Virus record (IMG/VR): IMGVR_UViG_3300044611_000796
Coordinates: 1 to 26,598 of that record
Length of the DNA: 26,598 nucleotides
DNA from: a virus
Reading direction: 5' to 3' (one strand)
Numbering within the stretch: the stretch's first letter is position 1; each line of letters opens with the position of its first letter. Of this stretch, positions 7,400 to 25,402 are shown in pieces. The notes under the pieces were generated by a model that was given only the letters and a program-made list of their open reading frames with translations, had not been told where the DNA came from and did no database searches. The position numbers and the translations under genes were made by a program.

Positions 7400-7403
7400 T
7401 TCT

Positions 7404-8966
7404 TTAGAATTCTACTACAATTTTTAATTCTTCTTTTTGTGAAGCAGATCTCGTGATTGGAGCTCTGTTATCAATATAAATTATTTCACCATAATATTTT
7501 TTTATATCTGGATTTGAAATTCCAGATGAAAAAGTTTGTCCGAGTTGAATCACTTTTCCGCCAACTTGAATATTATCACCTCCAAATGATGTATCTACAA
7601 TTAATGGAGATCCACTGACGGTGGAACAATTTATTGTTGTTCCAGAACCAACAAATGAATTCAACTTATATCCATATGTAGACAATGTTGAGAGACCAAC
7701 TGGTTGATAGTATTTTAAAATACCAGTATTTCCATTCCAAGAAGCAACATATCCAACTGCAGTGGACCCAACTCCAACAGATTGTGTTATTAATGCATTT
7801 ATTGGATATGATGTATCCGATGTATTACCAGCTCCCACTGGTTTTAATTTTAATGCACCAAGATTTGTTGCTGTGGAAGTATTTATTGGTTCTATTTGAC
7901 TACCATAAACAACTGGATTTTTAATTATTCCAATTCTTGAAAAATTGTTTCCAATTACATAATCTGGGTCAGAGTCATATTTTGAATAGACCATAGCCCT
8001 GTATGCTCCAAGTTCTTTATAAATATTAAATCCATGACCACCAACTGGAGGAATAATTACTTCAAAAGAACCTCCAGAACCTCCTGTAATCTCTGGATTT
8101 CCTCCTAACCCAACACCAAAGTTTATAAATGCTTTGGTATAATTTGAACCACCATTTGTAACTTGTATTGTATCAATTTCTCCACTATTAATTGTTATTG
8201 TTACTGTTCCTCCAGTGCCATCTCCTAGTATTGGAATATCCGTAATAGTTCCAGTTGAACCTCCACCACCAGAAAGGGTATATCCAGATCCTCTATTTTT
8301 TATAATTGCCGTTTGTATTTTTCCATTCACTGCAGAATTTTTAATAGATTCTGTTGTTTGATCTCCCCAAAATTTTGGAACAGGAATATAATTTTCAGTT
8401 GTAAATTTTAAAATATCTGATGGTGAAATTGTATAAAGATACTTCCACAAATATCCATCATCTCCTGCTTGTTGTGGATTTGTGTCTACAAAATTTGGTT
8501 CATATAAAGATTTTTGTCCATTTAAATATTCTGGATTTGATCCATTATTTAAACAAATGTATACTTTATATTCGGAATTTAAGACATAAAAACTAGATTC
8601 ATATAAAGTTTTTGCATTAGTTTGCGATGAAGGGTTGTCGATACTATAATTATTTTTATACATATCATATCTTACGCCAGATTCCCAATTAATTCTAGGA
8701 ATAATTCTAGCAACATCATTGGATGTTATTCTTTTTAAAAATAACATACTATCAAAGTATAAATTTTCTTCTCTCAATGAATCTTTTGGTTCTGGTGGAT
8801 CTGTTTGCCAATCAGAAGTACCATAATTTTCAATATTTGTATTTGTGGGATTTGGATGAGCCAAAAAACTATAATAATAATTTGTTGTAGTGCCAATTCC
8901 AGTAAAACTTTGAACAAAAGTTTCAGTGTTTAATATTCTAAACTGATCAGTAATTATGGCGGGCAT
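7404..8966 (-). CDS. 8: Baseplate wedge subunit, gp8-type
   Basis: This 520-residue protein starts MPAIITDQFRILNTETFVQ, which matches the characteristic N-terminus of the gp8-type baseplate wedge subunit of T4-like cyanophages. T4 gp8 itself is 334 residues, so this is a longer marine version. Gene order supports the call: gp25, gp6, a giant protein in the gp7 position, then this. Around residues 220-300 it is rich in glycine, with motifs such as NRGSGYTLSGGG and NGGSNYTKAF. These resemble repeats in both neighbouring giant proteins and may be an insertion relative to T4 gp8. It is preceded by an exact TATAAATA late promoter only 17 nt upstream, so it can be transcribed separately from the giant gene. 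The next gene follows after 4 nt. Confidence 0.8.
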   Translation of the reverse strand: MPAIITDQFRILNTETFVQSFTGIGTTTNYYYSFLAHPNPTNTNIENYGTSDWQTDPPEPKDSLREENLYFDSMLFLKRITSNDVARIIPRINWESGVRYDMYKNNYSIDNPSSQTNAKTLYESSFYVLNSEYKVYICLNNGSNPEYLNGQKSLYEPNFVDTNPQQAGDDGYLWKYLYTISPSDILKFTTENYIPVPKFWGDQTTESIKNSAVNGKIQTAIIKNRGSGYTLSGGGGSTGTITDIPILGDGTGGTVTITINSGEIDTIQVTNGGSNYTKAFINFGVGLGGNPEITGGSGGSFEVIIPPVGGHGFNIYKELGAYRAMVYSKYDSDPDYVIGNNFSRIGIIKNPVVYGSQIEPINTSTATNLGALKLKPVGAGNTSDTSYPINALITQSVGVGSTAVGYVASWNGNTGILKYYQPVGLSTLSTYGYKLNSFVGSGTTINCSTVSGSPLIVDTSFGGDNIQVGGKVIQLGQTFSSGISNPDIKKYYGEIIYIDNRAPITRSASQKEELKIVVEF

Positions 8967-8982
8967 TTTGTGTCTTTTTGAC

Positions 8983-8990
8983 TATTTATA
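8983..8990 (-). promoter_or_regulatory. T4-type late promoter (TATAAATA) before gp8-type gene
   Basis: The minus strand reads TATAAATA exactly, the consensus -10 element of T4 late promoters, which need gp55/gp33 sigma functions and the sliding clamp. It sits in the only sizeable gap of the structural operon, directly after the stop of the 3413-aa gene. The distance to the ATG at 8966 is 16 nt, so the expected leader is only about 10 nt and no clear Shine-Dalgarno is visible. Confidence 0.7.
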
Positions 8991-8996
8991 CTTTAA

Positions 8997-11900
8997 TTAA
9001 TAAGTTAATCTTAATTGCAATAATCTAGAAACATGTGCTGATGTTTCAATTCCAGCAATTCCATTTTGATTGTAAAATTCAAATGATTTAGAATTTGAAT
9101 TTCTAGATATATTGATTGTTCCCCAAGTATAGGTTCCGTAAGAATTAAGTTTGGGTAATAATGATGTGTTTATTCCAGAAATAGATTTTACGTTTGAATA
9201 TACACGAAGGGAACTTGATCCAATTGAAGTAATATTACTTGCATAATAAACATTATCAATAAAGCTATTTCCAACAGAAACAATCGAAGATGAATTATCC
9301 TTTATTGAAGTGACTCCAGATCCAATTATTGTATTTTCAATAACAAAATAATCACCTGTTGAAATTCCTGGTTTAACTACATTTCCAGGAATATTTGGAT
9401 CTGGAATTATATCAAAAATAATCATAGGAGATGATGTGCTTATTCCAGTAGCACTTGTGGCAATTCCAACAATAATTCCACAATCTCCGGAATATGTGAC
9501 TTTTTTTATTTTTTCTGTCACTGCAGTAGTTCCCAAACCAACTATTTTAATATCATTTAAAGTTTGTGACAAATCATCTAAATTATTAAACAATGGATAC
9601 GTATTTTTGACATAAATTTTAGAATCAGTCGATGCAACTGATGCAATAATATTTGTGCTTGGATATATTTGTGGTTCTAAATAATCTCTCTGTTTTGATA
9701 TTTTAATTCCATCAATAATAATATCGGAAGACTGTTTTGACCAAACTACTGGTCTCAAGAATGTGGAAGATGTGACTATTCCTATGCCACCATAAGTTTG
9801 TGTTTCTACGCTATCTGATGCAATTAATTCATAAATGATTCTTTCGTCTTGAGATGGAACGTTATTTTGTTTTTGTAATCTCAATCTATCTCCTGGTTTT
9901 ATTGACTGATTTACATTAATAATTAAATAATCTTCAGTTGACCCAACATAAAAATAAATTTTTAATTTACTTCCAGATTTTGGTGCTTCTTGGAATGTAA
10001 GTCTAGTTCCACCGTTAAAAATGTAATCTATTTCTGGTTTTTGTAATACATCATTTAAGAAAATAAGTAAATTATTTTTCAAAATAATTCCAGAATCTTT
10101 TTGTGCATTTATACTATAATATTCTTTAGTGACTATAGTTCTTGTTAATAAAAATGACTTTCTAAATCCATTGAATAAATTGCTAAAATCATCAAGTTCT
10201 AATAATTGACCAAAAGTCCAACCAGAGAATTTACTTTGATATCTATTCTTTACTGTAACTTTAAATGCAGAAGTTCCAATTCCAGTTCTAAATGGTATTC
10301 CAGAAAGAGTTAACACATCACCTACATTGTATCTATAACCACGATTCTGTAGATCAAATGAAATTATACTTCCTCCCGTACCAACTACTACATTCATTTT
10401 TGCTCCATTGCCATTACCACCAATTAATGATAGATTTTTGTATGGATATGGTTCATCTATAGTAACTGTAGGTGGGCTGGAAGATGTATATCCACTTCCT
10501 GGATTTATTATTGTAAATGAAGTCACAATTCCATTTGTTATTGATGAAATAATTGATGCCCCAATTCCAACTCCAAGTGTATCTGCAATAGAAACTCTAG
10601 GTGTGGCAGTATAACCAGATCCTCCAGTTGATAATCCAATTGATTGAATTGTTCCGCCAGCAGAAACAGTTACATACGCAGATGCCCTATATGGTGATTG
10701 ATATCCACTCCCGTTTGTTATATCAAATTCATTAATTACTCCACCTCTTGGTAAATCTCTATAATCAGATCCAGTAAAATTAATTGTTTGTCCAGTACCA
10801 ACAATTTGGTAATCTGACTCCAAAATAGATCCAACATCCCCGTAAAATGGTCTTTGGAAAATATTATTGACCAAAACAATTCCAAAACTGGTTTGTATTC
10901 CAGATAAAGTTGTTCCGTTTGTTGTTAAATTAAATTTGTTTTGAATACTATCAAAGGATTCTGAAATATCATCAATTATGTAATTTGTACCATAATTTAA
11001 ACGATAAAATACTCTTCCAGAAAAAGATGATTTTGACGTTAATGATCCAATTCCTGTTGGACCATAAGGAGCATCAGAAAAATAAATTTTACCGTCATTT
11101 ATAGTATAATCACCAGACAGTACAGTAACTGCTGCACCAACAGTATGTGCGGATGCAACAGATCCCATATAACTTCTAATAACATTGAGAGAATTGGTTG
11201 ATCCGACACCAACTAAATTGACTTTAATAATTTCATTTTCTATTTTTAATAATGATTTTCCTTGAATCTTTGAAATATCATTCAAATAAATTGTTGTTGT
11301 GGTCAATCCAACTTGAGTAGACAATCCTACTGATATATTTTTTTTAGATAATGGACTTTGAATTATATTATCAATAGTAATTAAACATCTACTTGAGGCC
11401 AAATTTGATTCAACTGAAAGACTGTGTTGTGTTCCAATGCCGGAAGAAGTAAATGTTATTGCTATTCCAGAAGATGCTTGAGTTGATCCTACTGCCAGTT
11501 TAATCGTATCTTTGGATATTTTGATAGCATATACATTAGATGGCAATATAGTTGTTGTCCCAACACCAACTATTGTTGTCGTTACAATTCCAATTGGTGT
11601 TCCTCCATTTGAAGAATACTTCAATATTTCGCCAGTATTAAATTCATGATCAGGAATTGTTATCAATGACGAAGATGTTATTATTCCAGAAGAATTGAAT
11701 TGTTTGTATAATAGTGTATTTCCATTATTATACAAAGTAAATGAAGTCAGACCAACAATTTGACCACCAATAGTAGTTGTTATTCCCGTAAATTGTGAAC
11801 TAATATCATCAATTTCTAAAACTTTATTTGTTCTTGATTCATTGTAGTCTGTAATAATTTTGGAATCAAATTTAATTATATTTGACAAAGATTGATTGCT

Positions 11901-14900
11901 GGTATCTTCAGAAGCAAGATCATAGTACAATCTATCATTTACTGAAGATGAACTTGATATTTCAACATTTAAATCAATTTGCGAATCAGTTGATTTCACA
12001 GAAGATGTTTTTCCAATTCCATTTAGTATTTCTAAATTAGAAAAGTTTTTAAATCCAGAGGTATGAGTTAAACTGTTAACTGGTTCTTTCCACACATCAT
12101 ATTCAACTTCTCCTTTTATAGAATATGAAAATCTTTGATAATAATCACTATCTTGAATTCTTTGATTGTCAAAATTTAATTTTCCTTTATCTGTATTCCA
12201 ATCTTTATCTTTTTTGACAGTTGAATTGACATTTAAATCAAAATCAAATGAATATGTAGAGTCAATACTTGATTTATAATTTCCTATAGACCCTTTTATT
12301 TGATTGTTTTCCTCAAATTTTCCATCGATATTAATAACTTTTAAAGTTTGTGCTTCTGAATCCCAACCATTTTTGGAAACATATGCGGTTGTATTATTAT
12401 TAATTTGAGTTATCTTTTCGCCTTCTAGAAAATTAATTTTTTCAAATTCTACATTAAATGAACATAAATCATCTACTTTTATGACCCTACCAAAAGTTTT
12501 TGTTGAATCGAATAATCCACCAGTATTACCAAGACCAGAAATTGAATATCTAACATATTCCGAACCAGAAATTGTATTGATTTCAGTAACTGTAAAATAC
12601 TTATAATCATAATCACTCGAATTATAACCATCCGATGAATCAGTTATTAAAACGTTTTCAACAAAAATTTTATCTCCTATATCAAATGGAAATTCGACAA
12701 ATCCTAAAAGTGGTGCTTTTAGATATAAAGTATTAATTTTAAAATTTGATGTCGCATTAATAATACCAACTCCATTTGAATTATTGATTGGTAAAATTCT
12801 AATGTCATTCGATAATCCACTGTCATTTGAAATAATTTCTATTTTTGATACAGAACTTCCTTGTATAGAAGTTCTAGTTAAAATTGATGAGTTTCCAATA
12901 GCAATTACATTTGGTGGAGAAGTATAATTTTTACCACCAGTAGAAATTCCAATTGTTTTTAATTTATATACATCTTTTAATTTTAAAATAGTATATACAT
13001 CTGCTTTTGGTGTTAATGTTTTATTATTTGAAAATTCAAGACCTTGATTTATAACTTTAATATCTTTTATATTTCCAATATCATTTGATTCAACTGAAAG
13101 AATACCATCAGATCCTTCAATTGATCTTATAGAGGAAATTTGAGGTATTCTTTCTAAATTTAATTTAGAGTCAATTTTTTTTATTGAAAATATTTTTCCT
13201 TTTGCATTTTGAGAATTTGTAAAATAATAAGCAGTTGAAATCCCAGTTTGATTGTATAATGTTGTTTCTGCTGTTCCAACTAAAGTAAAATTAAATGAAG
13301 TTGTACCAACTCCAGAAACAACATGAGATCCATTGTATATGGATTGTTTTACTTCTATTAATGAATAATTTTGAACATCGGTATTTGCTGATGAAGGATA
13401 AGTATCAGTAAACTTTATATCTTTTCCTTCAATTCTATAAAAGAATTGTTTTTCAATAGAATCATCAATAAAAAAGTTTATTATTGATGAAGGATTTGAA
13501 TTTCCAATTACTCCATATTTTCTTATTAAAGTTGAATTATATTCTGATTTAAATTCATTATCATAATAAAATTTAATATCATATCCAGACAAGCTAGTAT
13601 CTGATACTGCTATAGAAACATTGTTCCCTTTGTAAAAAGTTAACTTTGGATTAATTAATGATAAATTGTGAGTTCCTGAACCATATGAAGAAATCCCAAT
13701 ATATTCATAATCTAGTTTTGTGGCATTATAAGAATTTGATGCCAATTTAAAAGATGAATTTGATATTTTTATTACGTAGTAAATCCCATTATTCACAAAT
13801 GGTGTGATTGGATTTTCTGCAGTGTATACTACTACATCTCCAGTTTTATAGTTATGGTTATTGATTGTTATTGTAGAATCTGCAGTTCCAACACCAACTG
13901 CTGTCGATGCAAATGAAACAGGATTGACGACTAATTTTTTTATAGCATCATTAAATTTAAAATTAAAATATTGATTTGATTTTGGTAATATATTTAAATT
14001 TATATTATCACCTTTCATCAAATCAATTGAATCCTCAACAGTTACTGTGACATTTACTTTTTTACAATTTCCTGTTACTTGATTTTTGATAGATTCAAAT
14101 TTATGATTTGAACCCGTATATGAAACAAAATAAACATAAGAAGTAGTAAATCCAACTTTTTCTGTGGAAATTCCAATATATTCATCACTGATTTTAACAC
14201 AATATAAATTTTGAAAATCATTCAATGTAAATGTTGGAGTAAGAGAACTATTTTTTGATGCAATTATTGTTGAACCTATAGAAGTGTAAGAAATTAAATC
14301 TCCAGTATTAAATTTGTGATCTGGTAAATATATTGATTTTGGTGGAATAGATTTTACAATATTATTACTTCCAGATGTTGCTACGATAACATTAGTATAA
14401 CTGTTGCCAATTCCAATAGAAGTATTTGGATTAAAATAATACGAATAATTAGTTTGAATATTTGATTGTATTTGTGAATTATTATTAAATGTAAATGATT
14501 TTGGTAATAAACGAACTATGCTTGTTGCTGTGTGTGCTGATCCTACGGTATTATTATATGCCCTTTGAACTCTATATCTGTTATTATAATTGTCAAGATT
14601 TAAAATTAATAATTGCTCAGAATCAATTTGTATGATACTATTAGGGATAAAATTGCCATTTGAAGTTGGATCTGAAATTGAGATAAATGTAGTAATTCCC
14701 GTAGTGCTTGTGTCTCCAATGGAAACAGACAATGATGAAACTACTGCTGAAACTTCAATTGTTTTTAATCCTTCTATGTTTTTGTATAGTGCTGATGAAA
14801 TTCCAGAAATTTCAACAATGTCTCCATTTACAAAATTGTGAGGAACTGTGCTGAATGCAGTAACTTTTTTATCTAAAAATGAAAAAACAAGATTTTCATT

Positions 14901-17900
14901 TATAATTTCTGAAGATGCAATTGATATAATATTTTTTCCTAAAACTTCTTTTACATTGTAATTAATATTTGAATCATTTGAAAATATTACTTTGTCTCCA
15001 ACTTTGTAATTAGTGCCACCATCTTTAACACTAATTGTTGAAATTCCAGATTTTTTTGTAAGAATTACTTGTAAATCAACATTGGAATTAAAATTATCAT
15101 CAAAGAAAGGATATTTTTTATATTTCTCTGATATTCCTTGTGGCGTAATATTCCTCTTATACTCTCCTGTATTTAAATATGAATCTGATTGAGTTTTCAA
15201 TACATCATAATTGAATAAGTCAGTTGCATTATGATGTTTAAACGTTATATATGGGAATTCTGGATTTTTATCTACATCTAAAGTTGAAAAATAAGCATAT
15301 GATCCATTTGGAAAATCAGAATTAACAATAAATCTTCCGTTATATTCATCAAGATCCCCACTATCATCAAAATTGTAATCTTCAATAAAATATCCAGATG
15401 GATATGATGGTCTCAATGAATTATCATTAATTGGATCCAATGTGTATCCAGAAACAATCCTCTTTAATCCACCAGTTCCAGAAGAATCTGCAATACTCTT
15501 TGAATTTCCATACGGTCCATAAATTGGATTGCCATCATATGCCCAACCAATAATTGGAGAATGAGAATTAAGTTCATCCAACTCCTCAAAGGTATTTTGA
15601 TCTAAATTGTCATTTAAAATTTTACGAATTTCTTTTGTTGCATAATATGAACCTATTTTTTTTTGTTTAAATCTTGCTTCGGATGGAATTTGTAAAGTTC
15701 CTTTAAATTGTTCTGTTTCTAAAACATTTTTATGTCTTTCTACTGCATTTATTGACCATTTTTGAATTTCGGCATTCAAAAATGCACCAGATCCACAAGG
15801 AGTTACTTTTATTGTGGTATTATTTTTATCGTATCCTTTTCCACCATTTATAATATCAACTGATGTCAGTTCACCATTAGAAATGTTTGCTTTTAATTTT
15901 GCATATTTTCCAGAACCAATTATTTCTAAAATTGGTGGAGTTGTATATTCGGATCCTCTGTTTATGATATAAACGTTTGAAATTTCTCCACTATCATTTA
16001 CAATTGCTTGAATTGAAGCATTTTTTCCAGTCTGAAGATTTATTTCTGGTCTTCTTATTAAGTTTATGATATTTGTAACACCATAACCAACACCACCTTT
16101 TCTTAAAAATACATTTTCAACTTTACCTCGTACAATAGCATATGCAGTTGCAGTATAATATGATGGAACTGTTGTTGATGAAATTCCAGTATTTCCAAAA
16201 ATAGATACAGTTATTGGTGGATAATTAAATGTATGTGTACCTACTCCAATATTAGTTAAATTTGTATAAATTTTGTTATCGTAATCTGTAGTGCTTATGC
16301 TTGAAGCAGTTCCAGCATAACTCAGTTTAAATTTATTTTCATCTATTATTGTGACTTTATAATAATTTGAAGTTGATAATCCAGATATTGCAGTACCATC
16401 AACAGAATATGTTAATAAGTCACCATTTTTATAATTATGGTTTACTGCAAAAATGTAATCATCATATGTGTTTATGCCAACAAAAATTTTAAATATATCT
16501 TTTTTCTCTAACGGTGGATATGCAACAGAATCAACTATTACTTTTTTATTTGAGTATGAACTTCCTGGATTTTGAATTGAAATCCTATCAATAATATTTT
16601 TAAATTTAGAAGACTTAAAGGTGTGTGTTTGATTTCCAAAAGATAAAAAATCTATAAGATTTGTTTTTGTTAGAGCATTTTCTTTTGATGCAGCAATAGA
16701 AAATGAAGTTTCATTAATTTTTGAAATATAATAAAATGTATTATTTGTTAAACGAGATGTTGCAAATCCAACATTTGTACTTCCAATTCCAATTGGAAGA
16801 CCAGAAGAAATATAAATTACTTCTTCGCCATCAGCAAATTTGTGATCATCATCTAAATTAATTGAATTTGAAATTAAATTAACTTTTAGATCAGAGAAAG
16901 ACACATAATGTTGATATGAAGTCATTTTTGCTTCAGCAACACAACCAGACCCATTGCCACCTGAAATTTTTACTATCGGTAAATCAATATAATCAAATCC
17001 AGGATTTTCTAAAATTATTTCTTCAATACTTCCAGATAACTGTGAATATGCTTCTGCTCCAGAACCTAATGAATCTAAAATTGAAATAGTTGCAGGATTT
17101 ATCACATCATAATTTGATCCACTTTCCAAAACATTGATTTTTTGCAATTGTCCATAAAATACAGAATCATTTGAAATCGGAGAATATAATTCTACACCAT
17201 TCAAAGAAATTCCAATTGGACCATTCAATGGTAAATTTTTTGTATTTTTTTCTGGATTCTTTAAAATTCTTTTAAAGTTATCTTGGTTTTTTAAATTATT
17301 GCCATAAAGATCTGCTGGTGTGATTGTATTTGTATTATTTCCAGTTCCATTAAAATTTAAAAAATTATTTGAATGAATGTTTAATCTACTTAAAGATAAT
17401 TGAATTGAATTCTCATTCAATCTATTTACATAATAATAACCAGATGATATTCCAGATATGTCCGAAGATGCCTCTAGATAAATTTTATCACCAGTAATAA
17501 ATCCATGAGAATTAATATTAATTATACCTGAAGATGCAGAGATTGAATTAAATATTTTAGATCTATCGGTTGTTTCTAATGATCTGTATGATGGATAACC
17601 AGAAAATGCAATATAAGTATTTTTATCTTTGTCGATAAATGAATTTTGAATATCTGCAAGAAGATTATTTAAATTTAAATTACTTGAAACGAATTTTAAA
17701 TTTTTCTTAACATAATATTCGGTATTATCATTTAAAGATCCTGTTGCAATTTGAAATTCAGTAGAACTCAATACAAGAGAAACTTCAGAAGAATTTACTG
17801 TTATTGAATTTGTTAATTTGTTTATAATATCTACATTATCTCCTTTGTGTAGAAAATGTGGAGATTTTGTTATTATTGTATTTGTTGCTGCATTTACAGA

Positions 17901-19238
17901 TTGGGTTTCTATATATGAAATATTATTATGAAACCAAGTAGAAAACTTCATATCATCTAATGATGTTTTCTCGCCAATATATTTTAATTTAATTTGATCT
18001 CCAGGAAGAAAATATTTTGTATTTTCTACTCCTGTAGAAAGATTTGAAATCGCACCAACAACCCTCATTTTGCATATTGAGTTTATATCGTTATTTTCAT
18101 ATCCATAAACAAAATTATCATCTATAATAGGTGTATTTTCATTTAATGAGGTTGTAAGCCCAATACAACCAAAAAATTGATTATGAGATTTTGATGTATA
18201 TTCAGTTTGAATATACACATTACTTGCCTCATCCAAATAATAAAAATTCCCAACATCTTTGAATCCAATAGTAGAATCTACAGTAACAACATCAGAAGAT
18301 GGTGTATTTCCAATTACTTTGGTCTTAGTGCTAATTAAAAAATTTCCATTAATGGTAGATTTTGGAAAACTAATTTTATAATATTTTCTATTTCCCAAAT
18401 AAACATCTTCCACATTTGATATTGTTCCATTTGCGGCAGGAGAATCAAAAGAATTTTGATATAAGGTAGTTTCTTTAAGATTGGATGGATTTCCATTTAA
18501 AGATTCTACTATAATTTCATCAACACTTACCCATTCTGCTTCTGATGGAGATATTGTATTGTCAAATGGTTTTATAATTTGAACATTTTTTCCAAATAAA
18601 ATTTTAAATAAGATTTTAATAGCACTATCAGTTCCTTTTGAACTATAAAAATCTTTTGCTCTGGTTAAAATATTTTCAACGGATATACCAGGAGTAAAAG
18701 TTCTATTTTCAAATCCAGGCAAAAATTGATATTTGTATTTTTTAAAAAATTCTTGTAAAAATATAGAACTTAAATTACTAACTAATGATCCAGATGAATG
18801 CTCTTCTGCATCAGTTGAACTGAAGGTTAAAAATTGTGGATTACCTTCAGTTTCAATTTGAGAAATACCACTAAAACCACGAATACAACCAATAAAAGAA
18901 TTTGTTGTAATTCCAGTATAAGTTATAATTTCATTATCAATCTGTAATAATCCATATTTTGAAGGAAATCCAATAGTTGTATTTACATTAATCGTATCAT
19001 CGAATGCTAATATGTCAGAAGTTAAATTTATAGAAATTGTAGACAATCCAACATTTCTGTAAGTATCAATTTGTTTATATGAAGGAATATTTTCTGCTAG
19101 ATCTACAATAGAATATTCAAATTCTTGAGAAATATAATATTGATTTAAAAATTCTCTAAATAAAGGATTTTCTTCATTTAGAAATTCTGGAATTTGATTT
19201 TCAACAATATTTGAAATTTTAACTTTTTTTTCTAACAT
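8997..19238 (-). CDS. Giant 3413-aa baseplate/virion protein with YHYH-type motif (gp7 position)
   Basis: This one gene takes 10.2 kb, 38% of the window. It starts 2 nt after the gp6 stop, in the place of T4 gene 7 (1032 aa), so it is probably the wedge backbone protein or a fusion of it with fibre-like modules; that is inference from position. The N-terminus has EFLNEENPLFREFLNQYY. Residues 1231-1244 read GWAYDGNPIYGPYG, followed by LDEYNGRF and PNGSYAYF, the hallmark of the YHYH domain. Repeated short modules fill the rest. About eight copies of H-(aromatic)-x2-G-(D/E)-x2-x-Y occur near residues 460, 578, 798, 933, 1466, 1640, 1794 and 2530. About a dozen GG-x-GY type repeats occur, and three copies of an IDxE...RG/RA...H module lie near 97-124, 1533-1576 and 2659-2703. 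No membrane or signal segments are seen. The ATG choice at 19238 is supported by tight coupling to gp6 and an AAGAT stretch. Confidence 0.85.
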   Translation of the reverse strand: MLEKKVKISNIVENQIPEFLNEENPLFREFLNQYYISQEFEYSIVDLAENIPSYKQIDTYRNVGLSTISINLTSDILAFDDTINVNTTIGFPSKYGLLQIDNEIITYTGITTNSFIGCIRGFSGISQIETEGNPQFLTFSSTDAEEHSSGSLVSNLSSIFLQEFFKKYKYQFLPGFENRTFTPGISVENILTRAKDFYSSKGTDSAIKILFKILFGKNVQIIKPFDNTISPSEAEWVSVDEIIVESLNGNPSNLKETTLYQNSFDSPAANGTISNVEDVYLGNRKYYKISFPKSTINGNFLISTKTKVIGNTPSSDVVTVDSTIGFKDVGNFYYLDEASNVYIQTEYTSKSHNQFFGCIGLTTSLNENTPIIDDNFVYGYENNDINSICKMRVVGAISNLSTGVENTKYFLPGDQIKLKYIGEKTSLDDMKFSTWFHNNISYIETQSVNAATNTIITKSPHFLHKGDNVDIINKLTNSITVNSSEVSLVLSSTEFQIATGSLNDNTEYYVKKNLKFVSSNLNLNNLLADIQNSFIDKDKNTYIAFSGYPSYRSLETTDRSKIFNSISASSGIININSHGFITGDKIYLEASSDISGISSGYYYVNRLNENSIQLSLSRLNIHSNNFLNFNGTGNNTNTITPADLYGNNLKNQDNFKRILKNPEKNTKNLPLNGPIGISLNGVELYSPISNDSVFYGQLQKINVLESGSNYDVINPATISILDSLGSGAEAYSQLSGSIEEIILENPGFDYIDLPIVKISGGNGSGCVAEAKMTSYQHYVSFSDLKVNLISNSINLDDDHKFADGEEVIYISSGLPIGIGSTNVGFATSRLTNNTFYYISKINETSFSIAASKENALTKTNLIDFLSFGNQTHTFKSSKFKNIIDRISIQNPGSSYSNKKVIVDSVAYPPLEKKDIFKIFVGINTYDDYIFAVNHNYKNGDLLTYSVDGTAISGLSTSNYYKVTIIDENKFKLSYAGTASSISTTDYDNKIYTNLTNIGVGTHTFNYPPITVSIFGNTGISSTTVPSYYTATAYAIVRGKVENVFLRKGGVGYGVTNIINLIRRPEINLQTGKNASIQAIVNDSGEISNVYIINRGSEYTTPPILEIIGSGKYAKLKANISNGELTSVDIINGGKGYDKNNTTIKVTPCGSGAFLNAEIQKWSINAVERHKNVLETEQFKGTLQIPSEARFKQKKIGSYYATKEIRKILNDNLDQNTFEELDELNSHSPIIGWAYDGNPIYGPYGNSKSIADSSGTGGLKRIVSGYTLDPINDNSLRPSYPSGYFIEDYNFDDSGDLDEYNGRFIVNSDFPNGSYAYFSTLDVDKNPEFPYITFKHHNATDLFNYDVLKTQSDSYLNTGEYKRNITPQGISEKYKKYPFFDDNFNSNVDLQVILTKKSGISTISVKDGGTNYKVGDKVIFSNDSNINYNVKEVLGKNIISIASSEIINENLVFSFLDKKVTAFSTVPHNFVNGDIVEISGISSALYKNIEGLKTIEVSAVVSSLSVSIGDTSTTGITTFISISDPTSNGNFIPNSIIQIDSEQLLILNLDNYNNRYRVQRAYNNTVGSAHTATSIVRLLPKSFTFNNNSQIQSNIQTNYSYYFNPNTSIGIGNSYTNVIVATSGSNNIVKSIPPKSIYLPDHKFNTGDLISYTSIGSTIIASKNSSLTPTFTLNDFQNLYCVKISDEYIGISTEKVGFTTSYVYFVSYTGSNHKFESIKNQVTGNCKKVNVTVTVEDSIDLMKGDNINLNILPKSNQYFNFKFNDAIKKLVVNPVSFASTAVGVGTADSTITINNHNYKTGDVVVYTAENPITPFVNNGIYYVIKISNSSFKLASNSYNATKLDYEYIGISSYGSGTHNLSLINPKLTFYKGNNVSIAVSDTSLSGYDIKFYYDNEFKSEYNSTLIRKYGVIGNSNPSSIINFFIDDSIEKQFFYRIEGKDIKFTDTYPSSANTDVQNYSLIEVKQSIYNGSHVVSGVGTTSFNFTLVGTAETTLYNQTGISTAYYFTNSQNAKGKIFSIKKIDSKLNLERIPQISSIRSIEGSDGILSVESNDIGNIKDIKVINQGLEFSNNKTLTPKADVYTILKLKDVYKLKTIGISTGGKNYTSPPNVIAIGNSSILTRTSIQGSSVSKIEIISNDSGLSNDIRILPINNSNGVGIINATSNFKINTLYLKAPLLGFVEFPFDIGDKIFVENVLITDSSDGYNSSDYDYKYFTVTEINTISGSEYVRYSISGLGNTGGLFDSTKTFGRVIKVDDLCSFNVEFEKINFLEGEKITQINNNTTAYVSKNGWDSEAQTLKVINIDGKFEENNQIKGSIGNYKSSIDSTYSFDFDLNVNSTVKKDKDWNTDKGKLNFDNQRIQDSDYYQRFSYSIKGEVEYDVWKEPVNSLTHTSGFKNFSNLEILNGIGKTSSVKSTDSQIDLNVEISSSSSVNDRLYYDLASEDTSNQSLSNIIKFDSKIITDYNESRTNKVLEIDDISSQFTGITTTIGGQIVGLTSFTLYNNGNTLLYKQFNSSGIITSSSLITIPDHEFNTGEILKYSSNGGTPIGIVTTTIVGVGTTTILPSNVYAIKISKDTIKLAVGSTQASSGIAITFTSSGIGTQHSLSVESNLASSRCLITIDNIIQSPLSKKNISVGLSTQVGLTTTTIYLNDISKIQGKSLLKIENEIIKVNLVGVGSTNSLNVIRSYMGSVASAHTVGAAVTVLSGDYTINDGKIYFSDAPYGPTGIGSLTSKSSFSGRVFYRLNYGTNYIIDDISESFDSIQNKFNLTTNGTTLSGIQTSFGIVLVNNIFQRPFYGDVGSILESDYQIVGTGQTINFTGSDYRDLPRGGVINEFDITNGSGYQSPYRASAYVTVSAGGTIQSIGLSTGGSGYTATPRVSIADTLGVGIGASIISSITNGIVTSFTIINPGSGYTSSSPPTVTIDEPYPYKNLSLIGGNGNGAKMNVVVGTGGSIISFDLQNRGYRYNVGDVLTLSGIPFRTGIGTSAFKVTVKNRYQSKFSGWTFGQLLELDDFSNLFNGFRKSFLLTRTIVTKEYYSINAQKDSGIILKNNLLIFLNDVLQKPEIDYIFNGGTRLTFQEAPKSGSKLKIYFYVGSTEDYLIINVNQSIKPGDRLRLQKQNNVPSQDERIIYELIASDSVETQTYGGIGIVTSSTFLRPVVWSKQSSDIIIDGIKISKQRDYLEPQIYPSTNIIASVASTDSKIYVKNTYPLFNNLDDLSQTLNDIKIVGLGTTAVTEKIKKVTYSGDCGIIVGIATSATGISTSSPMIIFDIIPDPNIPGNVVKPGISTGDYFVIENTIIGSGVTSIKDNSSSIVSVGNSFIDNVYYASNITSIGSSSLRVYSNVKSISGINTSLLPKLNSYGTYTWGTINISRNSNSKSFEFYNQNGIAGIETSAHVSRLLQLRLTY

Positions 19239-19240
19239 CT

Positions 19241-21127
19241 TTATCTTGTATACTTTTTATTACTTGTGAAACTAGAAGGTGGAACGTAAGAGTTTCCAGA
19301 TTTATTAGATCCAGAAGATATTGGATCTTCTATAAGATTTAGTGAACTATTGCTTGTAGTATCTAGGACAATATAAAGATTCTCTTTTGCAATAATATCA
19401 TTAGAATCTGGAACAACTTCGATTTCAATTCCAACAGAAGATTTTGTAGATGTAATAGTTACTGGATATAATATAATTTCTCCTTTTTCATAATTTACTA
19501 CTCCTGCATTATTATTGATAAAATTTGGAGATCCATCAATCAAGGTAAAAAATCTAATTTTTCCTTTTTTTCCTGTAGAATCATCTGGAAGATCAGTTAA
19601 ATATATATCGCCATCCACTCCACTTATTTTAAACGATGTTGAACGAATATTAAATCCATAAACATCTGCATGAAATTTGTTCACAAAACATAATTCGTAG
19701 TTAGCAAGTATATTATATGCAGGAGAAAGATTCCTTCTCATTTTTAAAAGAGTAATATTTGACGTTATGCCCTTATCTACATTATCAATTAATGAAATCA
19801 ACTTACTATATTTAATTCTTCCACCAAAAGAATTGATATCGGAAGATTTTGAATACGAATTTATTGTCGATTGAATTTTTGTATAAAGATTTTCTTTATT
19901 TGGTACAAAACTTGGGTCATATGATACTGTCGAATCATATTCTATATACAAATATTTCAAATCAATAAATTCTTGCTTAATTCCTGCTACTGTATATTTC
20001 TTTAAATCATTTTTAATTGAATTTTTTGTAACATCAGAAAGAGTCTCACCATTTTTTGGTTTAATTGTAATATAAACTTTGCCATATTGTGGAGGATCAA
20101 GTTCTTCCCCACCATAGGCGCTTGCCGAATCTACATTTGAATATAAAAATGGAATTAAACTTGTATAATCATTGGACGTAACTGCCCTGTATTGCGATGC
20201 ATAGACCCTTGGAGCAAGATATTTGATCGTATCTATAGATTCAATGCCATCTCCGTTTTCAGACGGTTGTAGAGTGGTAAGAAGAGATATTCCAGAGGTG
20301 ACTGGTTTATCAATTCCGTTCTCCACATAAGATAAATTGCCAGAAAATGTGAAATTTGCACCACCATTGCCATCAATTCCGTTCGTTACAATGTATGATA
20401 CACTAATTGTACTACCATTTTCTGGATTTTTGCCAAAAATGTTGTCCCCAAACAAAATTTGATACTTTTCGTCATCAATTTCTTGAATTAAAAAGATTTT
20501 TGAGGTTGATTCTACTGTAAAAATATTTTTATAGAGTTCATATTTTTCTGTTGTGGTGCCAGTAACAGAAACTCTAACTGTTGAGGTGTCAATATTTGCA
20601 TTTGGTAAGATATATTTTGTATTTGCTTGCGAATTGTCTACATTAAACGTCTTTTTTAAAAATGTTCCTTCATAAATCTCAATATTATCAAATGATGCAA
20701 CTCCACTACTATCTGGAGTAACAGAAATATCTTCTGGAATTGAAAAAATATAATTTCCTCCCTGAACTGACCCCAAAGCAACTACACCAGCATTCAATTT
20801 TACTAATCTTGTATTAATGTTACTGACATCTACGCTAAAACTAATCTTTGCTTTTGAAGATTTAACAGATCTTGGAACATAACCAATATTTCTTGCTAAA
20901 GAAACTACATTTTCTCTTAATGTAGAGCTATCAATGAATGACTCATTGATAGCCATATTAGTATTATATGATGTAATGTAACTATTATACGCAAGAAGAT
21001 CAATTAAAACTGAAAAATTGGATCCCTCAAAGTCAAAATCAGTAAAATTAGGATTTGCTCTCAGATAATCTTTAATCTGAGTTCGCAAATCGTTGAAATC
21101 TAAATTTGTAAACTGATTGAATGACAT
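19241..21127 (-). CDS. 6: Baseplate wedge subunit gp6
   Basis: This 628-residue protein is close in length to T4 gp6 (660 aa). The N-terminus reads MSFNQFTNLDFNDLRTQIKD, then GSNFSVLIDLLAYNSYITSY and FIDSSTLRENVVSLARNIGY, all strongly conserved in gp6 of T4-like cyanophages. The family contains a baseplate J-like core. In T4, gp6 forms the inner ring of the baseplate and joins gp7 and gp53 in the wedge, binding near gp25. The start codon overlaps the gp25 stop by one base (TAATG), so the two are very likely translationally coupled. The C-terminal tail (SSGSNKSGNSYVPPSSF) is Ser/Gly/Pro-rich and probably flexible. Confidence 0.93.
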   Translation of the reverse strand: MSFNQFTNLDFNDLRTQIKDYLRANPNFTDFDFEGSNFSVLIDLLAYNSYITSYNTNMAINESFIDSSTLRENVVSLARNIGYVPRSVKSSKAKISFSVDVSNINTRLVKLNAGVVALGSVQGGNYIFSIPEDISVTPDSSGVASFDNIEIYEGTFLKKTFNVDNSQANTKYILPNANIDTSTVRVSVTGTTTEKYELYKNIFTVESTSKIFLIQEIDDEKYQILFGDNIFGKNPENGSTISVSYIVTNGIDGNGGANFTFSGNLSYVENGIDKPVTSGISLLTTLQPSENGDGIESIDTIKYLAPRVYASQYRAVTSNDYTSLIPFLYSNVDSASAYGGEELDPPQYGKVYITIKPKNGETLSDVTKNSIKNDLKKYTVAGIKQEFIDLKYLYIEYDSTVSYDPSFVPNKENLYTKIQSTINSYSKSSDINSFGGRIKYSKLISLIDNVDKGITSNITLLKMRRNLSPAYNILANYELCFVNKFHADVYGFNIRSTSFKISGVDGDIYLTDLPDDSTGKKGKIRFFTLIDGSPNFINNNAGVVNYEKGEIILYPVTITSTKSSVGIEIEVVPDSNDIIAKENLYIVLDTTSNSSLNLIEDPISSGSNKSGNSYVPPSSFTSNKKYTR

Positions 21128-21528
21128 TATACTCTTGTTGGTTGTAAGATGAATTCTATATTTTGTGTCGGAAATGGTAATCCAACAATATCATAAGAAA
21201 CATTAATGTTTAAATCATTTGTGTCTGCTGGTTCATCAACAAAAACAGTTCTTAATTTGATTCTAGGTTCGAAATTATTCAATAATGATGTAATTTCTTC
21301 TTGTAAAAATGAACCTATGCCTGAATTTTGCAATTCAAACATTGAATTTTCTACAGATGTACCCAACAAATCATTAAAAAATCTCTCACCGAGACGAGTT
21401 CTGACCAAATTTATAACAGATTTTTTAATTGCATCCTCATTTTTAAGTGCAATCACATCATTCGTAACTGGATGCCTCGCAAAAGACAAACTAATGTCCT
21501 TAAAACTACGAGAAATTGTTACTGCCAT
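21127..21528 (-). CDS. 25: Baseplate wedge subunit gp25
   Basis: This 133-residue protein matches the T4 gp25 size (132 aa) and the GPW/gp25 family. Visible family motifs are RTRLGERFF at residues 43-51 and FEPRI at 86-90, which in this family help contact the sheath-initiating and gp6 inner-ring interface. It contains no signal or membrane segment. The chosen ATG at 21528 gives MAVTISRSFKDISLSF, the usual N-terminus. Another ATG four bases upstream is in a different frame. It is the first gene of the tight gp25-gp6-giant-gp8 cluster and ends overlapping gp6. A near-consensus late promoter lies about 21 nt upstream. Confidence 0.93.
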   Translation of the reverse strand: MAVTISRSFKDISLSFARHPVTNDVIALKNEDAIKKSVINLVRTRLGERFFNDLLGTSVENSMFELQNSGIGSFLQEEITSLLNNFEPRIKLRTVFVDEPADTNDLNINVSYDIVGLPFPTQNIEFILQPTRV

Positions 21529-22808: not shown

Positions 22809-23558
22809 TCAGATAATTCTAGTCTTTTCATGACCAACTCGAATTCTTGGATCACACCAAATCTCATAACCTGCTTCTTTTGCATCTAAACAGAATGAGA
22901 CATCCTCGCCACACATGTCCTGCACTTCACCACTCTCAAATTGTTGCATCTTCGGAGCAAACCAAGGATATTCTAGATTTTCAAATACACCCTTCTTGAT
23001 TAGAACCCAACCAAATCCTGTGTAATCTACTGTAAACGGTTTGCGACGTTTGCTCATGGTTTCAATTGTTTCATGATTCATAACACCACCATTGCTTCTA
23101 AAATCTTCTTCTTCCAACCAATGAGCAACTGAGGTGGTCATACCATCTTCGGTACAATACCAACCTGCTGCAATGTCTTTATCCATTGCAACAAGACGAT
23201 AGAATTTTTCAGTGTCAAATACAATATCACTATCAATCCATAGTTGATAATCATAATTCAGTTTCCCATCCCAAGGAACTTGCTTTGGTCCTCTGAGAAC
23301 ATTTGCTCCTAAACACTTACATCTCGCAAAATTAACCATACTTGAATAATCTTGTGAAATCTGAATACTTGCTCCGCTCTGTACTAAATCAAAACATAGC
23401 TGAACAAAGTTCTTCAAATACGTATAAGATACTCCTCGTCCTGGCAAACAAAATACCACAGACTTTCCACGAATCATTTCTTTTGCTGCATCTAAATTAA
23501 ATTCATCAGAAGATGATACTTTAGGTGCTACTGTTTTAACTGTAAATCCTTTAGCCAT
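22809..23558 (-). CDS. Glycosyltransferase, GT-A type
   Basis: This 249-residue soluble protein has the hallmarks of a GT-A nucleotide-sugar transferase. These are a DxD motif in LWIDSDIVF (DSD at residues 109-111) for metal and donor binding, a later GEDVSFC motif at 217-223 typical of the acceptor and catalytic region, and VGHEKT with His243 as a likely third metal ligand. An early SVVFCLPGRGVSYTYLKNF segment (33-51) fits the first Rossmann-like strand and loop. Proteins of this kind are common in T4-like cyanophages, where the sugar acceptor (virion protein, DNA or host glycan) is usually unknown. The frame starts at ATG 23558 with a weak purine-rich leader (GTGAAAAAAA). It has its own promoter at 23584-23612 and a terminator after it, so it may be transcribed alone. 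Confidence 0.8.
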   Translation of the reverse strand: MAKGFTVKTVAPKVSSSDEFNLDAAKEMIRGKSVVFCLPGRGVSYTYLKNFVQLCFDLVQSGASIQISQDYSSMVNFARCKCLGANVLRGPKQVPWDGKLNYDYQLWIDSDIVFDTEKFYRLVAMDKDIAAGWYCTEDGMTTSVAHWLEEEDFRSNGGVMNHETIETMSKRRKPFTVDYTGFGWVLIKKGVFENLEYPWFAPKMQQFESGEVQDMCGEDVSFCLDAKEAGYEIWCDPRIRVGHEKTRII

Positions 23559-23909: not shown

Positions 23910-23973
23910 AACCCTTACGCATTTTTACTCTTTTGTTTTTATATAGCATTTTAACCTTTTTGAATAAAAATTT

Positions 23974-23981
23974 TTCCGGAA
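23974..23981. other. AT-flanked TTCCGGAA palindrome
   Basis: A perfect 8-bp palindrome is flanked by imperfectly complementary A/T runs (AAAAATTT on one side, ATTTTTTT on the other). It lies in the leader of the 50-aa gene. It could be a weak bidirectional terminator, a leader hairpin or a protein site; the evidence is thin. Confidence 0.3.
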
Positions 23982-24058
23982 ATTTTTTTATTTTATTCTC
24001 AATCTCTCGAACGTTTTCAAAGGTTTGTAGGTTAGGGTAGTTTGCTTTTTTAGCTTTA

Positions 24059-24067
24059 GGGGGGGGG
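24059..24067. repeat. G9 homopolymer tract
   Basis: Nine consecutive G on the plus strand in a very AT-rich neighbourhood. It lies in the leader between a possible minus-strand promoter (24085-24113) and the 50-aa gene. Long G tracts are prone to slippage and to sequencing error. Confidence 0.85.
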
Positions 24068-24084
24068 CATCGGTTAGGTATAAG

Positions 24085-24113
24085 AATACAACAACACAAA
24101 ATATAACTGTCAA
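24085..24113 (-). promoter_or_regulatory. Possible promoter driving the 50/56-aa genes
   Basis: The minus strand reads TTGACA (perfect -35), a 17-nt spacer and TGTATT (four of six matches to the -10 consensus). Transcription would start near 24078 and give a leader of about 170 nt before the 50-aa gene. The -35 box overlaps a palindrome at 24112-24127. Confidence 0.4.
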
Positions 24114-24127
24114 AACAGTGCTGTTTT
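24112..24127. promoter_or_regulatory. Palindrome over a -35 box, possible operator
   Basis: AAAACAG and CTGTTTT form 7-bp inverted arms around TG. The element overlaps the TTGACA box of the promoter at 24085-24113, the position expected of a repressor site. No repressor gene is recognised in the window. Confidence 0.4.
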
Positions 24128-24180
24128 ATTATAATAAACGAACAATGACGAATACTTTATATTCATTACTGTGTTATAAA

Positions 24181-24399
24181 AATAATAAACTATATGGGGG
24201 GTGTCCTTATAACGAAGAGCACGATATAAGTGCTTATACAACACTGTCAGATTCAAATAATAAACTGTATGGGGGGTGTGGATAAAGACGAAGTGCTTCT
24301 AAAGTATAAGACAGTGAGACTACAAGTGAGTACACAGAACTATATACAACGAATAGTATAGCACAGGACGAACCGAATAGCAAACTGTATGGGAGGTGT
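24181..24399 (+). repeat. Three dispersed 24-bp repeats with a G-rich core
   Basis: Copies start at 24181, 24256 and 24376 and end at 24204, 24279 and 24399. The shared sequence is AATAATAAACTGTAT followed by a G6 run (GGGAGG in copy 3) and TGT. Copies 1 and 2 differ at one position; copy 3 differs at two to three. Spacings are 75 and 120 bp. Copy 2 continues into TGTGGATAA (24277-24285), the exact reverse complement of the E. coli DnaA box TTATCCACA. No coding frame follows these repeats. Confidence 0.85.
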
Positions 24400-24460
24400 C
24401 TAATAACGATACTGTTATATTATTATACTATAAGACAATTATATGTTTATACTATGAGTA

Positions 24461-24570
24461 CAACGAAGTGTTATGACGAACTGTTATGTATAACGAAGTC
24501 TTATGACGAAGTTCTATGAATAACGAACTGTTTTCCACAGGATATAACGAACTCTGTGGAATATAACGAA
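24461..24570 (+). repeat. ACGAA iteron-like array with 30-bp tandem units
   Basis: ACGAA occurs 13 times on the plus strand between 24138 and 24570. In the dense part the positions are 24463, 24476, 24493, 24506, 24523, 24547 and 24566. The 13/17 alternation defines a 30-bp unit repeated at 24461-24490 and 24491-24520, with a third unit whose second half becomes a TTTTCCACA box. The repeats are degenerate (AACGAAGTGTTATGACGAA and similar). The array adjoins the DnaA-box cluster, the arrangement seen in iteron-type origins. Confidence 0.8.
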
Positions 24571-24740
24571 TAGTTTTCCACAAGTTTTCCACAGGTTTTG
24601 AATAGTTTTCCACAGGGCAATTCTTATAAACCCTTGCAAACACTACAAATTATTATAAACCTGTGGAAAACTATTCTGTGAAAATCATTACTTTCCCCTA
24701 TAGGAAATGAATGAAACCTGTGGAAAACTATTTTTCCACA
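24531..24740. other. Cluster of seven DnaA-type boxes, candidate replication origin
   Basis: Exact TTTTCCACA occurs at 24531-24539, 24574-24582, 24585-24593, 24606-24614 and 24732-24740 on the plus strand, and at 24662-24670 and 24719-24727 on the minus strand. Near matches lie at 24555-24563 and 24677-24685. TTTTCCACA is the DnaA-box form of cyanobacterial origins. Boxes are arranged with dyad symmetry: a 17-bp inverted repeat (GAATAGTTTTCCACAGG, 24600-24616, against 24660-24676) and a 19-bp direct repeat AAACCTGTGGAAAACTATT at the 24662 and 24719 boxes. AT-rich stretches at about 24401-24450 and 24940-25050 could unwind. The box cluster is seen directly; origin function is inference. Confidence 0.6.
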
Positions 24741-24742
24741 GG
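24717..24742. repeat. Perfect 11-bp inverted repeat formed by two DnaA-type boxes
   Basis: CCTGTGGAAAA and TTTTCCACAGG face each other around CTAT. The arms are the extended box sequence in opposite orientations. As RNA it would form a stable hairpin, but there is no T run after it on the plus strand (GCACGAG follows), so a terminator role is unlikely. Confidence 0.8.
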
Positions 24743-24814
24743 CACGAGACTTATAAGAATTGTCGAGATTCTGTCAATATGTGTTGTGCCAGTCCTAGGA
24801 GTGTCTGTGTGCCC

Positions 24815-24843
24815 TTGACTTTTTATGGGGTTTATGGTATAAT
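24815..24843 (+). promoter_or_regulatory. Strong plus-strand sigma-70 promoter with no gene downstream
   Basis: The plus strand reads TTGACT, a 17-nt spacer and TATAAT with TGG before the -10 box, close to the ideal sigma-70 promoter. It points opposite to every gene in the window. Transcription would start near 24850 and run through repeats and an AT-rich tract into the antisense strand of the small genes from 25081. The longest plus-strand frames just downstream are only a few codons. Confidence 0.75.
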
Positions 24844-24849
24844 GCGGGC

Positions 24850-24945
24850 TTAGACAACAAGAACTAGAGGGGTTTAGAGAAGCATAAGAACAAGAACTAG
24901 AGGCATTTATAAGTGTCTAGACAGGTTATAAGAACCTTTATATAA
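24850..24945 (+). ncRNA. Possible non-coding transcript from the orphan promoter
   Basis: Predicted from the promoter at 24815-24843; the 3' end is a guess. The segment holds two copies of a 15-mer repeat, a TAGACA...TGTCTA pairing (24851-24856 with 24914-24919) that could close the intervening RNA, a TGTCTAGACA palindrome (24914-24923), and a small AGGTT/AACCT hairpin (24923-24937) followed by TTTATAT that could be a weak terminator. There is no resemblance to tRNA or a known RNA family that I can see. It could be a replication primer, an antisense RNA or a regulator. Confidence 0.3.
24856..24903 (+). repeat. 15-bp direct repeat downstream of the orphan promoter
   Basis: AACAAGAACTAGAGG is present exactly at 24856-24870 and at 24889-24903, 33 bp apart. 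Both copies lie within the first 60 bases of the predicted plus-strand transcript. Confidence 0.85.
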
Positions 24946-25062
24946 CACTATCATTATAACACAACAAAACACTCAACTATGTTTTTTAATACATTTAATT
25001 TAATTATCAATTAAAACATTCTTACATATCAAATGATAATTATCTCTTATGCTTGAGTGTTA
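24938..25062. other. AT-rich gap flanked by a 9-bp inverted repeat
   Basis: This stretch is almost all A and T and has no coding frame beyond a few codons. AACACTCAA (24968-24976) and TTGAGTGTT (25053-25061) are perfect inverted arms enclosing 76 nt that includes the palindromic GATAATTATC. On the minus strand the second arm is followed by TTGTTGTG, so it could act as a loose terminator for the genes ending at 25081. Alternatively it is an unwinding element of the adjacent candidate origin. Confidence 0.4.
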
Positions 25063-25080
25063 ATCTCTTCCATCTGATCT

Positions 25081-25272
25081 TCATTGATTCAATGTAATCA
25101 GTTGTGATTGAATATCTTCAATCTCATTCACATCATCATACTCTGCTAAATCTACTGGATGAAACTCATTCAAATTGATTGTATTATCAGTATAGATCGG
25201 AGCATAGAATAGTTCATACTCTTCACCTAACTTATAAACACAACCGTGATCTTCTTTGTGTAGGATAATCAT
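25081..25272 (-). CDS. Small acidic hypothetical phage protein (63 aa)
   Basis: I chose the ATG at 25272 (MIILHKEDHGCVYKLGEEYE) because it follows the stop of the 42-aa gene by one base. A longer form starting ten codons earlier would overlap that gene by 29 bases. The protein is acidic, with a beta-like first half (CVYKLGEEYELFYAPIY) and an acidic helix-like end (AEYDDVNEIEDIQSQLI). No membrane or signal segment and no recognised family. There is no clear Shine-Dalgarno, so translation is probably coupled to the gene before it. Confidence 0.65.
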   Translation of the reverse strand: MIILHKEDHGCVYKLGEEYELFYAPIYTDNTINLNEFHPVDLAEYDDVNEIEDIQSQLITLNQ

Positions 25273-25273
25273 T

Positions 25274-25402
25274 TCAGTTTTGTTGGCAGAGTTTAATAGC
25301 ATCAGTAATCGAAGTAGTCAAATACTTACAATCACCATTGGTGTTACATACGGCATAAACTTTTTGTTGAGTGTTAATGTCGTAAGTGAAACGGATAGTC
25401 AT
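25274..25402 (-). CDS. Tiny hypothetical phage protein (42 aa)
   Basis: The frame encodes MTIRFTYDINTQQKVYAVCN and ends TDAIKLCQQN. It looks like a beta-hairpin followed by a strand and a short helix (RFTYDI, KVYAV, KYLTTS, ITDAIKLC), and holds three Cys. It lies one base before the 63-aa gene, which supports its reality. No strong ribosome site is visible upstream. I do not recognise a family. Confidence 0.6.
   Translation of the reverse strand: MTIRFTYDINTQQKVYAVCNTNGDCKYLTTSITDAIKLCQQN

Follow-up and report, generated by a model that had tools for sequence, protein, structure and literature searches.

The window analysed here, an entire IMG/VR record of 26,598 bases that is itself a fragment of a phage genome, carries seven exact copies of the 9-mer TTTTCCACA, and this array is not peculiar to the one contig: the module recurs widely and keeps its position upstream of gene 25. 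The best single reading, which we rate as an even call, is that the array forms the core of a replication origin using the DnaA protein of the host. A box cluster at a fixed place suggests, from sequence comparison, that many T4-like cyanophages borrow the host initiator to copy their DNA. The observations behind this reading are boxes that cluster upstream of gene 25 in many of these phages, an unstable flank and a promoter in most of the isolates tested, and the absence of a phage DnaA from the searched records. Judged by its gene 6- and gene 25-like baseplate proteins and by its best gp6 matches, which are Synechococcus phages with an identity of up to 58%, the window phage belongs with T4-like cyanophages, as the original prediction had it.

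The array and its neighbours in the window

All seven exact copies fall within 24531-24740, that is in 210 bp and in both orientations as had been claimed, and the recount found none elsewhere in the 26.6 kb. Among 100 dinucleotide shuffles of the window, the mean was 0.85 copies and the largest number five, none of the 100 reaching seven, in agreement with the earlier statement that the clustering is far above chance. A genome-wide count of TTTTCCACA is possible in relatives only, because the window record is a fragment. The dyad symmetry that had been noticed was located as two perfect arm pairs, one of 17 nt (24600-24616 / 24660-24676) and one of 11 nt with a 4-nt gap (24717-24727 / 24732-24742). 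One-mismatch sites are present in or near the cluster, on the minus strand, at 24555 (TATTCCACA) and 24277 (TTATCCACA). The 1.2-kb region described as gene-free is indeed devoid of a convincing gene, ~23,910-25,080 holding short frames only (at most 66 aa), which we took as spurious. The features are as follows.

19241..21127, minus: gene 6-like baseplate wedge subunit
21127..21528, minus: gene 25-like baseplate wedge subunit, the landmark downstream of the array
22809..23558, minus: gene matching phrog_1574, weakly a glycosyltransferase family; anchor for relatives
24162-24204, 24237-24279 and 24357-24399, plus: repeats of 43 nt, three copies, each closing with AAACTGTATGGGGGGTGT or a near variant of it
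24400..24459, no strand: candidate unwinding segment, the least stable 40-mers near the array (98-99th window percentile)
24422..24449, minus: weaker promoter-like site, TAAACA-16-TATAAT, directed toward gene 25
24460..24518, plus: direct repeats of 16 nt, four copies, ACGAAGTGTTATG-like, spaced by 13, 17 and 13, adjoining box 1 on the gene-25 side
24531..24539, plus: putative DnaA box 1, exact match (GTTTTCCACAGG)
24574..24593, plus: putative DnaA boxes 2 and 3, exact matches starting at 24574 and 24585, tandem, 2 nt apart (TTTTCCACAAGTTTTCCACA)
24606..24614, plus: putative DnaA box 4, exact match, inside the left of the two perfect 17-nt arms
24616..24661, no strand: inter-arm stretch with two TTATAAACC copies, 70% AT (the window average), mostly kept in the closest relatives
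24662..24670, minus: putative DnaA box 5, exact match
24717..24742, no strand: putative DnaA boxes 6 (24719-24727, minus) and 7 (24732-24740, plus), an inverted pair, 13 bp start to start
24815..24843, plus: predicted strong promoter of sigma-70 type, TTGACT-17-TATAAT, TG preceding the second hexamer, 11/12
25081..25302, minus: 73-aa gene, phrog_4138, function not assigned

Pfam matches of the small proteins neighbouring the array were weak, all below cut-off. The protein encoded at 21836-22468 matches phrog_3704, labelled ferredoxin, and gave no Pfam match at E 0.1, so that this label is doubtful.

Box clusters upstream of gene 25 in other phages

Eighty IMG/VR loci were found through the neighbour gene at 22809-23558. 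Clustered boxes lie at most ~4 kb upstream of this anchor gene in nine of them (L018, L105, L127, L129, L134, L136, L139, L140 and L145) and are lacking in the other 71, of which 22 have less than 1 kb of sequence on the relevant side; the parent records of L166 and L202 hold clusters past the fetched flank. In an alignment of the window with L127, L129, L105, L136 and L139, the boxes, the inter-arm stretch and the first promoter hexamer, TTGAC(A/T) in 5/5 relatives, were recognisably kept, L127 retaining part of the boxes only and the second hexamer drifting. The 16-nt repeats are partly kept in L129, L127 and L136, and sequence similar to the 43-nt repeats occurs in close relatives.

TTTTCCACA was also counted in the records of 24 T4-like cyanophage isolates and of T4. 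Eleven of the 24 isolates have a close pair of boxes upstream of gene 25, 1.6-7.6 kb from it: the distance is ~4.6-7.6 kb in S-PM2, S-CREM1, Syn9, S-ShM2, Syn33, S-H35, ACG-2014a and DSL-LC02, 4.6 kb in S-SM1, 3 kb in S-SM2 and 1.6 kb in Syn19. Eleven others have no cluster (S-SSM7, P-SSM2, Sf-FS3, S-SCSM2R, Bellamy, S-CAM7, S-B05, S-SRM01, S-8S55, P-SSM4 and S-RSM4), including the phages closest to the window by gp6 (S-SSM7, Sf-FS3 and S-SCSM2R), which counts against the origin reading. Two isolates stand in neither group: S-CAM1, where a close pair is present and gene 25 was not located, and S-SKS1, with a weaker version made of one exact box and two TTATCCACA at 21-bp spacing, 8.8 kb upstream of gene 25. 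These 21-bp-spaced boxes of S-SKS1 (151414-151464) adjoin TTATAAACC repeats, an element also seen in the inter-arm stretch of the window. S-8S55 was counted as negative, as its pair (88301/88590) is not at the gene-25 locus. The proportion of positives depended on how isolates entered the set: it was 4/6 in a biased group recruited through weak blastn matches to the window's intergenic region (S-CAM1, S-CREM1, S-SKS1, S-H35, Syn33 and ACG-2014a), 6/8 in isolates chosen by name, and 1/10 (DSL-LC02) in gp6 relatives among the matches listed. As for a substitute repeat in the 11 cluster-less phages, no 9-mer pairs in more than three of the 11 fetched regions (one of two fetched stretches for S-RSM4); S-SRM01 alone has a five-copy repeat there, and S-8S55 a four-copy repeat.

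The arrangement of the boxes varies. The pair is inverted in nine of the 11 positive isolates, tandem in S-SM2, and replaced by three boxes in one direction in S-H35; tandem boxes 2-3 nt apart are shared by the window, S-PM2 and S-CREM1, and the 13-bp inverted spacing of boxes 6 and 7 recurs in L129, L105, L136, L018 and S-PM2. Two box sub-clusters 0.6-1 kb apart were observed in the parent records of L026 and L050 and in S-CREM1, where a small gene separates the two. Another reading is that the sites are bound by a phage-encoded protein whose operator happens to coincide with TTTTCCACA, which we consider decidedly unlikely. The preferred box flanks (AGTTTTCCACAGG) and the 13-bp inverted pairs speak for it, as do the adjoining 16-nt repeats and the co-localisation of the 73-aa gene in some phages: a relative of this gene is found next to the boxes in Syn33 and ACG-2014a, and at a greater distance past them in S-SKS1, and the same search found none in the remaining whole genomes. 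Against it, the core matches the cyanobacterial DnaA box in all 9 bp (the 80 boxes tallied for flanks were chosen as exact matches, so that the core is invariant by construction), and flanks, spacing and orientation otherwise vary.

The specificity of the 9-mer was evaluated in two ways. In eight whole genomes, picked for having clusters and used for the 9-mer, stability and skew comparisons, TTTTCCACA is the one 9-mer that forms pairs no more than 50 bp apart over the 10 kb preceding gene 25 in 8/8, the next-best 9-mers reaching 3/8 genomes and overlapping TTTTCCACA. Stronger evidence came from IMG/VR scans for paired TTTTCCACA, tandem and inverted, that were blind to phage identity. Among the matches listed, cyanophage gene 6 or gene 25 accompanied the paired boxes at 34/120 tandem and 52/120 inverted loci, compared with 0/120 and 0/119 for a reversed 9-mer matched for composition rather than for phage group; with a wider query set the numbers were 39/120 and 60/120 versus 2/120 and 0/119. 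The inverted control comprised 119 of 120 loci, one locus common to another list having been dropped. In 83 of these 119 loci (L641-L759), ACACCTTTT...AAAAGGTGT has one spacing, 28 nt end to end, and appears to be an inverted repeat conserved in another group of phages. The tandem control is therefore the fairer one, because the inverted control is dominated by this one element of other phages.

Among the matches listed, the cluster is upstream of gene 25, at 2.2-10 kb, in 73/73 loci where gene 25 and clustered boxes occur together; these were fetched as stretches of at most 15 kb, which limits the distance and not the side, and form 72 groups if loci sharing a 200-mer without mismatch are counted as one. 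The original prediction had proposed to look in related phages for this cluster at this locus, and it was found both in these loci and in the 11 isolates.

Unstable DNA and promoters beside the boxes

The DNA beside the main pair was most unstable on one constant side. The least stable 40-mer was on the gene-25 side in 8/8 genomes, at the 96-100th percentile, and this side was less stable than the far side in each of the eight, chance values for single genomes being 0.006-0.20. In the window, the unstable segment is 70-130 bp from box 1, a point against the origin reading, and the DNA directly flanking the outer boxes is unexceptional (79th percentile of instability beside box 1, 45th at the other end).

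Promoters were also frequent near the boxes. A sigma-70 promoter scoring at least 10/12 with a 17-bp spacer is found within 300 bp of the main pair and directed toward gene 25 in 9/12 isolates, starting 118-243 bp past the pair; 35 of 400 random 300-bp stretches of Syn9 scored at least 10/12. Of the 12 isolates scored, S-PM2, S-CREM1 and DSL-LC02 have no strong promoter in this direction, and S-SM2, S-SKS1 and DSL-LC02 have one of at least 10/12 in the opposite direction. In the window, the strong promoter is 75 bp past box 7 and is directed away from both the boxes and gene 25, and it lies on the other side of the boxes compared with most isolates, which also counts against the origin reading.

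Such promoters raise another explanation, in which host DnaA bound to the boxes would activate or repress a nearby strong promoter and tune early transcription to the state of the host, with no origin involved. The promoters of the nine isolates and the 11/12 promoter of the window are what it would predict. However, the side and direction of the promoter differ between the window and most isolates, three isolates have no strong one toward gene 25 and three a reverse-reading one, the boxes are more than 100 bp from the promoter in isolates, and a regulator has no need of unstable DNA beside its boxes. We consider promoter control unlikely.

GC skew, tried as evidence for an origin, was uninformative and was set aside: it is nearly one-signed along each of the eight genomes, the cluster is at no extreme, and its position in the detrended curve ranges from the 44th to the 87th percentile.

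Host DnaA, known origins and the proposed initiation

The claim that the 9-mer is the cyanobacterial form of the DnaA box agrees with passages of PMC4674748, which report TTTTCCACA in 7/11 repeats of Synechococcus PCC 7942 and gel-shift complexes formed in vitro by domain IV of Cyanothece DnaA with TTTTCCACA. Like the array, the cyanobacterial oriC of S. elongatus, Anabaena and Cyanothece contains clustered exact TTTTCCACA, with two perfect boxes 2 nt apart in Cyanothece (PMC4674748, in the passages cited). According to part of PMC8287927, the DnaA of S. elongatus unwinds the origin of that species in vitro, both boxes and trios being required. The window 20-mer TTTTCCACAAGTTTTCCACA is also present in three other cyanobacterial genomes (Nostoc, Fischerella and Oscillatoria), inside box clusters of putative oriC status. 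Of the oriC-like features, the phages thus have a cluster of host-type boxes and an adjacent unstable segment (in 8/8 isolates, and 70-130 bp off in the window). Unlike these origins, the array sits in a lytic T4-like phage, with no dnaA or dnaN adjoining and with phage replisome genes, and its origin role is putative.

The likely hosts carry few such boxes. A tandem box pair was found in one of eight picocyanobacterial chromosomes (RCC307), versus 5/5 other, larger cyanobacterial genomes, and the 2.37 Mb of WH7803 contain 14 exact boxes. The use of TTTTCCACA by picocyanobacterial hosts is inferred from other cyanobacteria, because picocyanobacterial chromosomes show few boxes, and this weighs against the origin reading. 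No box cluster was seen near position 1 or around dnaA in WH7803 and RCC307, or in the initial 12 kb of SynAce01. Exact pairs spaced by 50 bp or less are limited to one at 1819368/1819412 in WH7803 (inverted; 1819368-1819420) and one at 474410/474443 in RCC307 (tandem; 474410-474451), both candidate chromosomal origin sites, as judged from the boxes. A DnaA gene is present in 4/4 picocyanobacterial genomes, and no protein exceeded the DnaA family cut-off in 30 phage records, a set that excludes the window's fragment record. A phage-encoded DnaA was also considered in these 30 records and rejected, the only matches, two of 38 positions, being far below the cut-off (E ~9e-4).

The scarcity of boxes in the picocyanobacterial chromosomes examined would equally suit a sink, in which the array titrates host DnaA and thereby halts replication of the host chromosome. 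The model is datA of E. coli, a locus with a DnaA-box cluster and an IHF site that titrates DnaA and that, like the array, lies away from oriC. Clustered exact boxes are what a sink requires, and the phage copy number would multiply it. By contrast with datA, the phage cluster is flanked by unstable DNA, always on one side; neither this nor a fixed gene position is needed for titration, and many isolates have two or three exact boxes only. Altogether, a sink appears quite unlikely.

T4 replication is not known to use DnaA and is the textbook case of independence from the host initiator, its origins being of the R-loop type, with a promoter and an unwinding element and no DnaA boxes. The array resembles them in its host-type promoter and easily opened DNA, and differs from them in that T4 has no TTTTCCACA cluster, its two copies being ~10 kb apart (the count concerns TTTTCCACA and not the E. 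coli form TTATCCACA). Among the cyanophage isolates scored, a promoter is present in most, but DnaA boxes are there too. P1 oriR and lambda ori/pR are further cases of phages whose replication recruits host DnaA or responds to it; unlike the array phage, P1 and lambda are temperate, and their origins require the phage RepA or O protein.

For an origin that uses host DnaA, the following sequence of events may be proposed. Host DnaA would bind the clustered, partly inverted TTTTCCACA boxes and would melt the unstable stretch that adjoins them toward gene 25, and transcripts started at the neighbouring early promoter of host type may aid opening or give a primer. The phage gp59/gp41 helicase system would then enter, the gp59 helicase loader being annotated in six cyanophage records, and the first rounds of replication would begin; recombination-dependent replication can take over later. 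A difficulty for this origin reading is that chromosomal DnaA loads a DnaB-type helicase and these phages have gp41. In its most extended form, the proposal is that a large share of T4-like cyanophages begin to replicate from a single fixed origin, located upstream of gene 25 and opened by host DnaA, with the host initiator coupled to a T4-type replisome and the array outcompeting the host origin for DnaA, because the picocyanobacterial chromosomes examined carry few boxes. We hold this extended form tentatively, at somewhat below even confidence. If true, the first replication step of T4-like cyanophages has been rewired to the host, and phage DNA replication could be linked to the cell-cycle and nutrient state of the host. 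T4-like cyanophages are abundant in the ocean, and cultured isolates and hosts make direct testing possible.

Existing reports offer some points of contact. A part of the review PMC2984593 reports T4-type replication genes in cyanomyoviruses and quotes the prediction of a single theta origin in Syn9; a single site is what the cluster would provide, and the Syn9 close pair (52565-52597) would, if the origin reading is true, give this predicted origin a concrete address. Titles and abstract openings listed, a scope outside which most subscription journals fall, contained no description of DnaA boxes in T4-like cyanophages. Word searches of two cyanophage genome papers found no such origin, with words other than DnaA in PMC3037559 and with 'DnaA' occurring 0 times in PMC10665884.

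For S-PM2, part of PMC4503421 reports a 2-3-fold rise in read density just downstream of the deleted ORFanage at 5,799-15,339, which its authors read as terminal redundancy. The S-PM2 boxes are at 19,231-19,264, and the rise could fit either an origin or a packaging site near them. Headful packaging or recombination might indeed start in this region, the boxes marking the locus for another reason, and the read density is in favour of such a pac site; a pac site predicts neither a DnaA 9-mer nor an unstable flank, and we find this reading very improbable. The tRNA-Asn and tRNA-Leu annotated over the S-PM2 boxes (19177-19333) were not confirmed, ARAGORN having found no tRNA in that 16-kb stretch, and this annotation looks shifted.

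A non-coding block with GGTTAGGGTAGT at 24001-24066 of the window weakly matches unannotated DNA of many cyanophages (blastn, E 0.03-0.3), among them Syn33 (47260-47323), S-RIM12 and S-MbCM6. In the window and in Syn33 alike, some 0.5 kb separates this block from the boxes, in the direction of gene 25.
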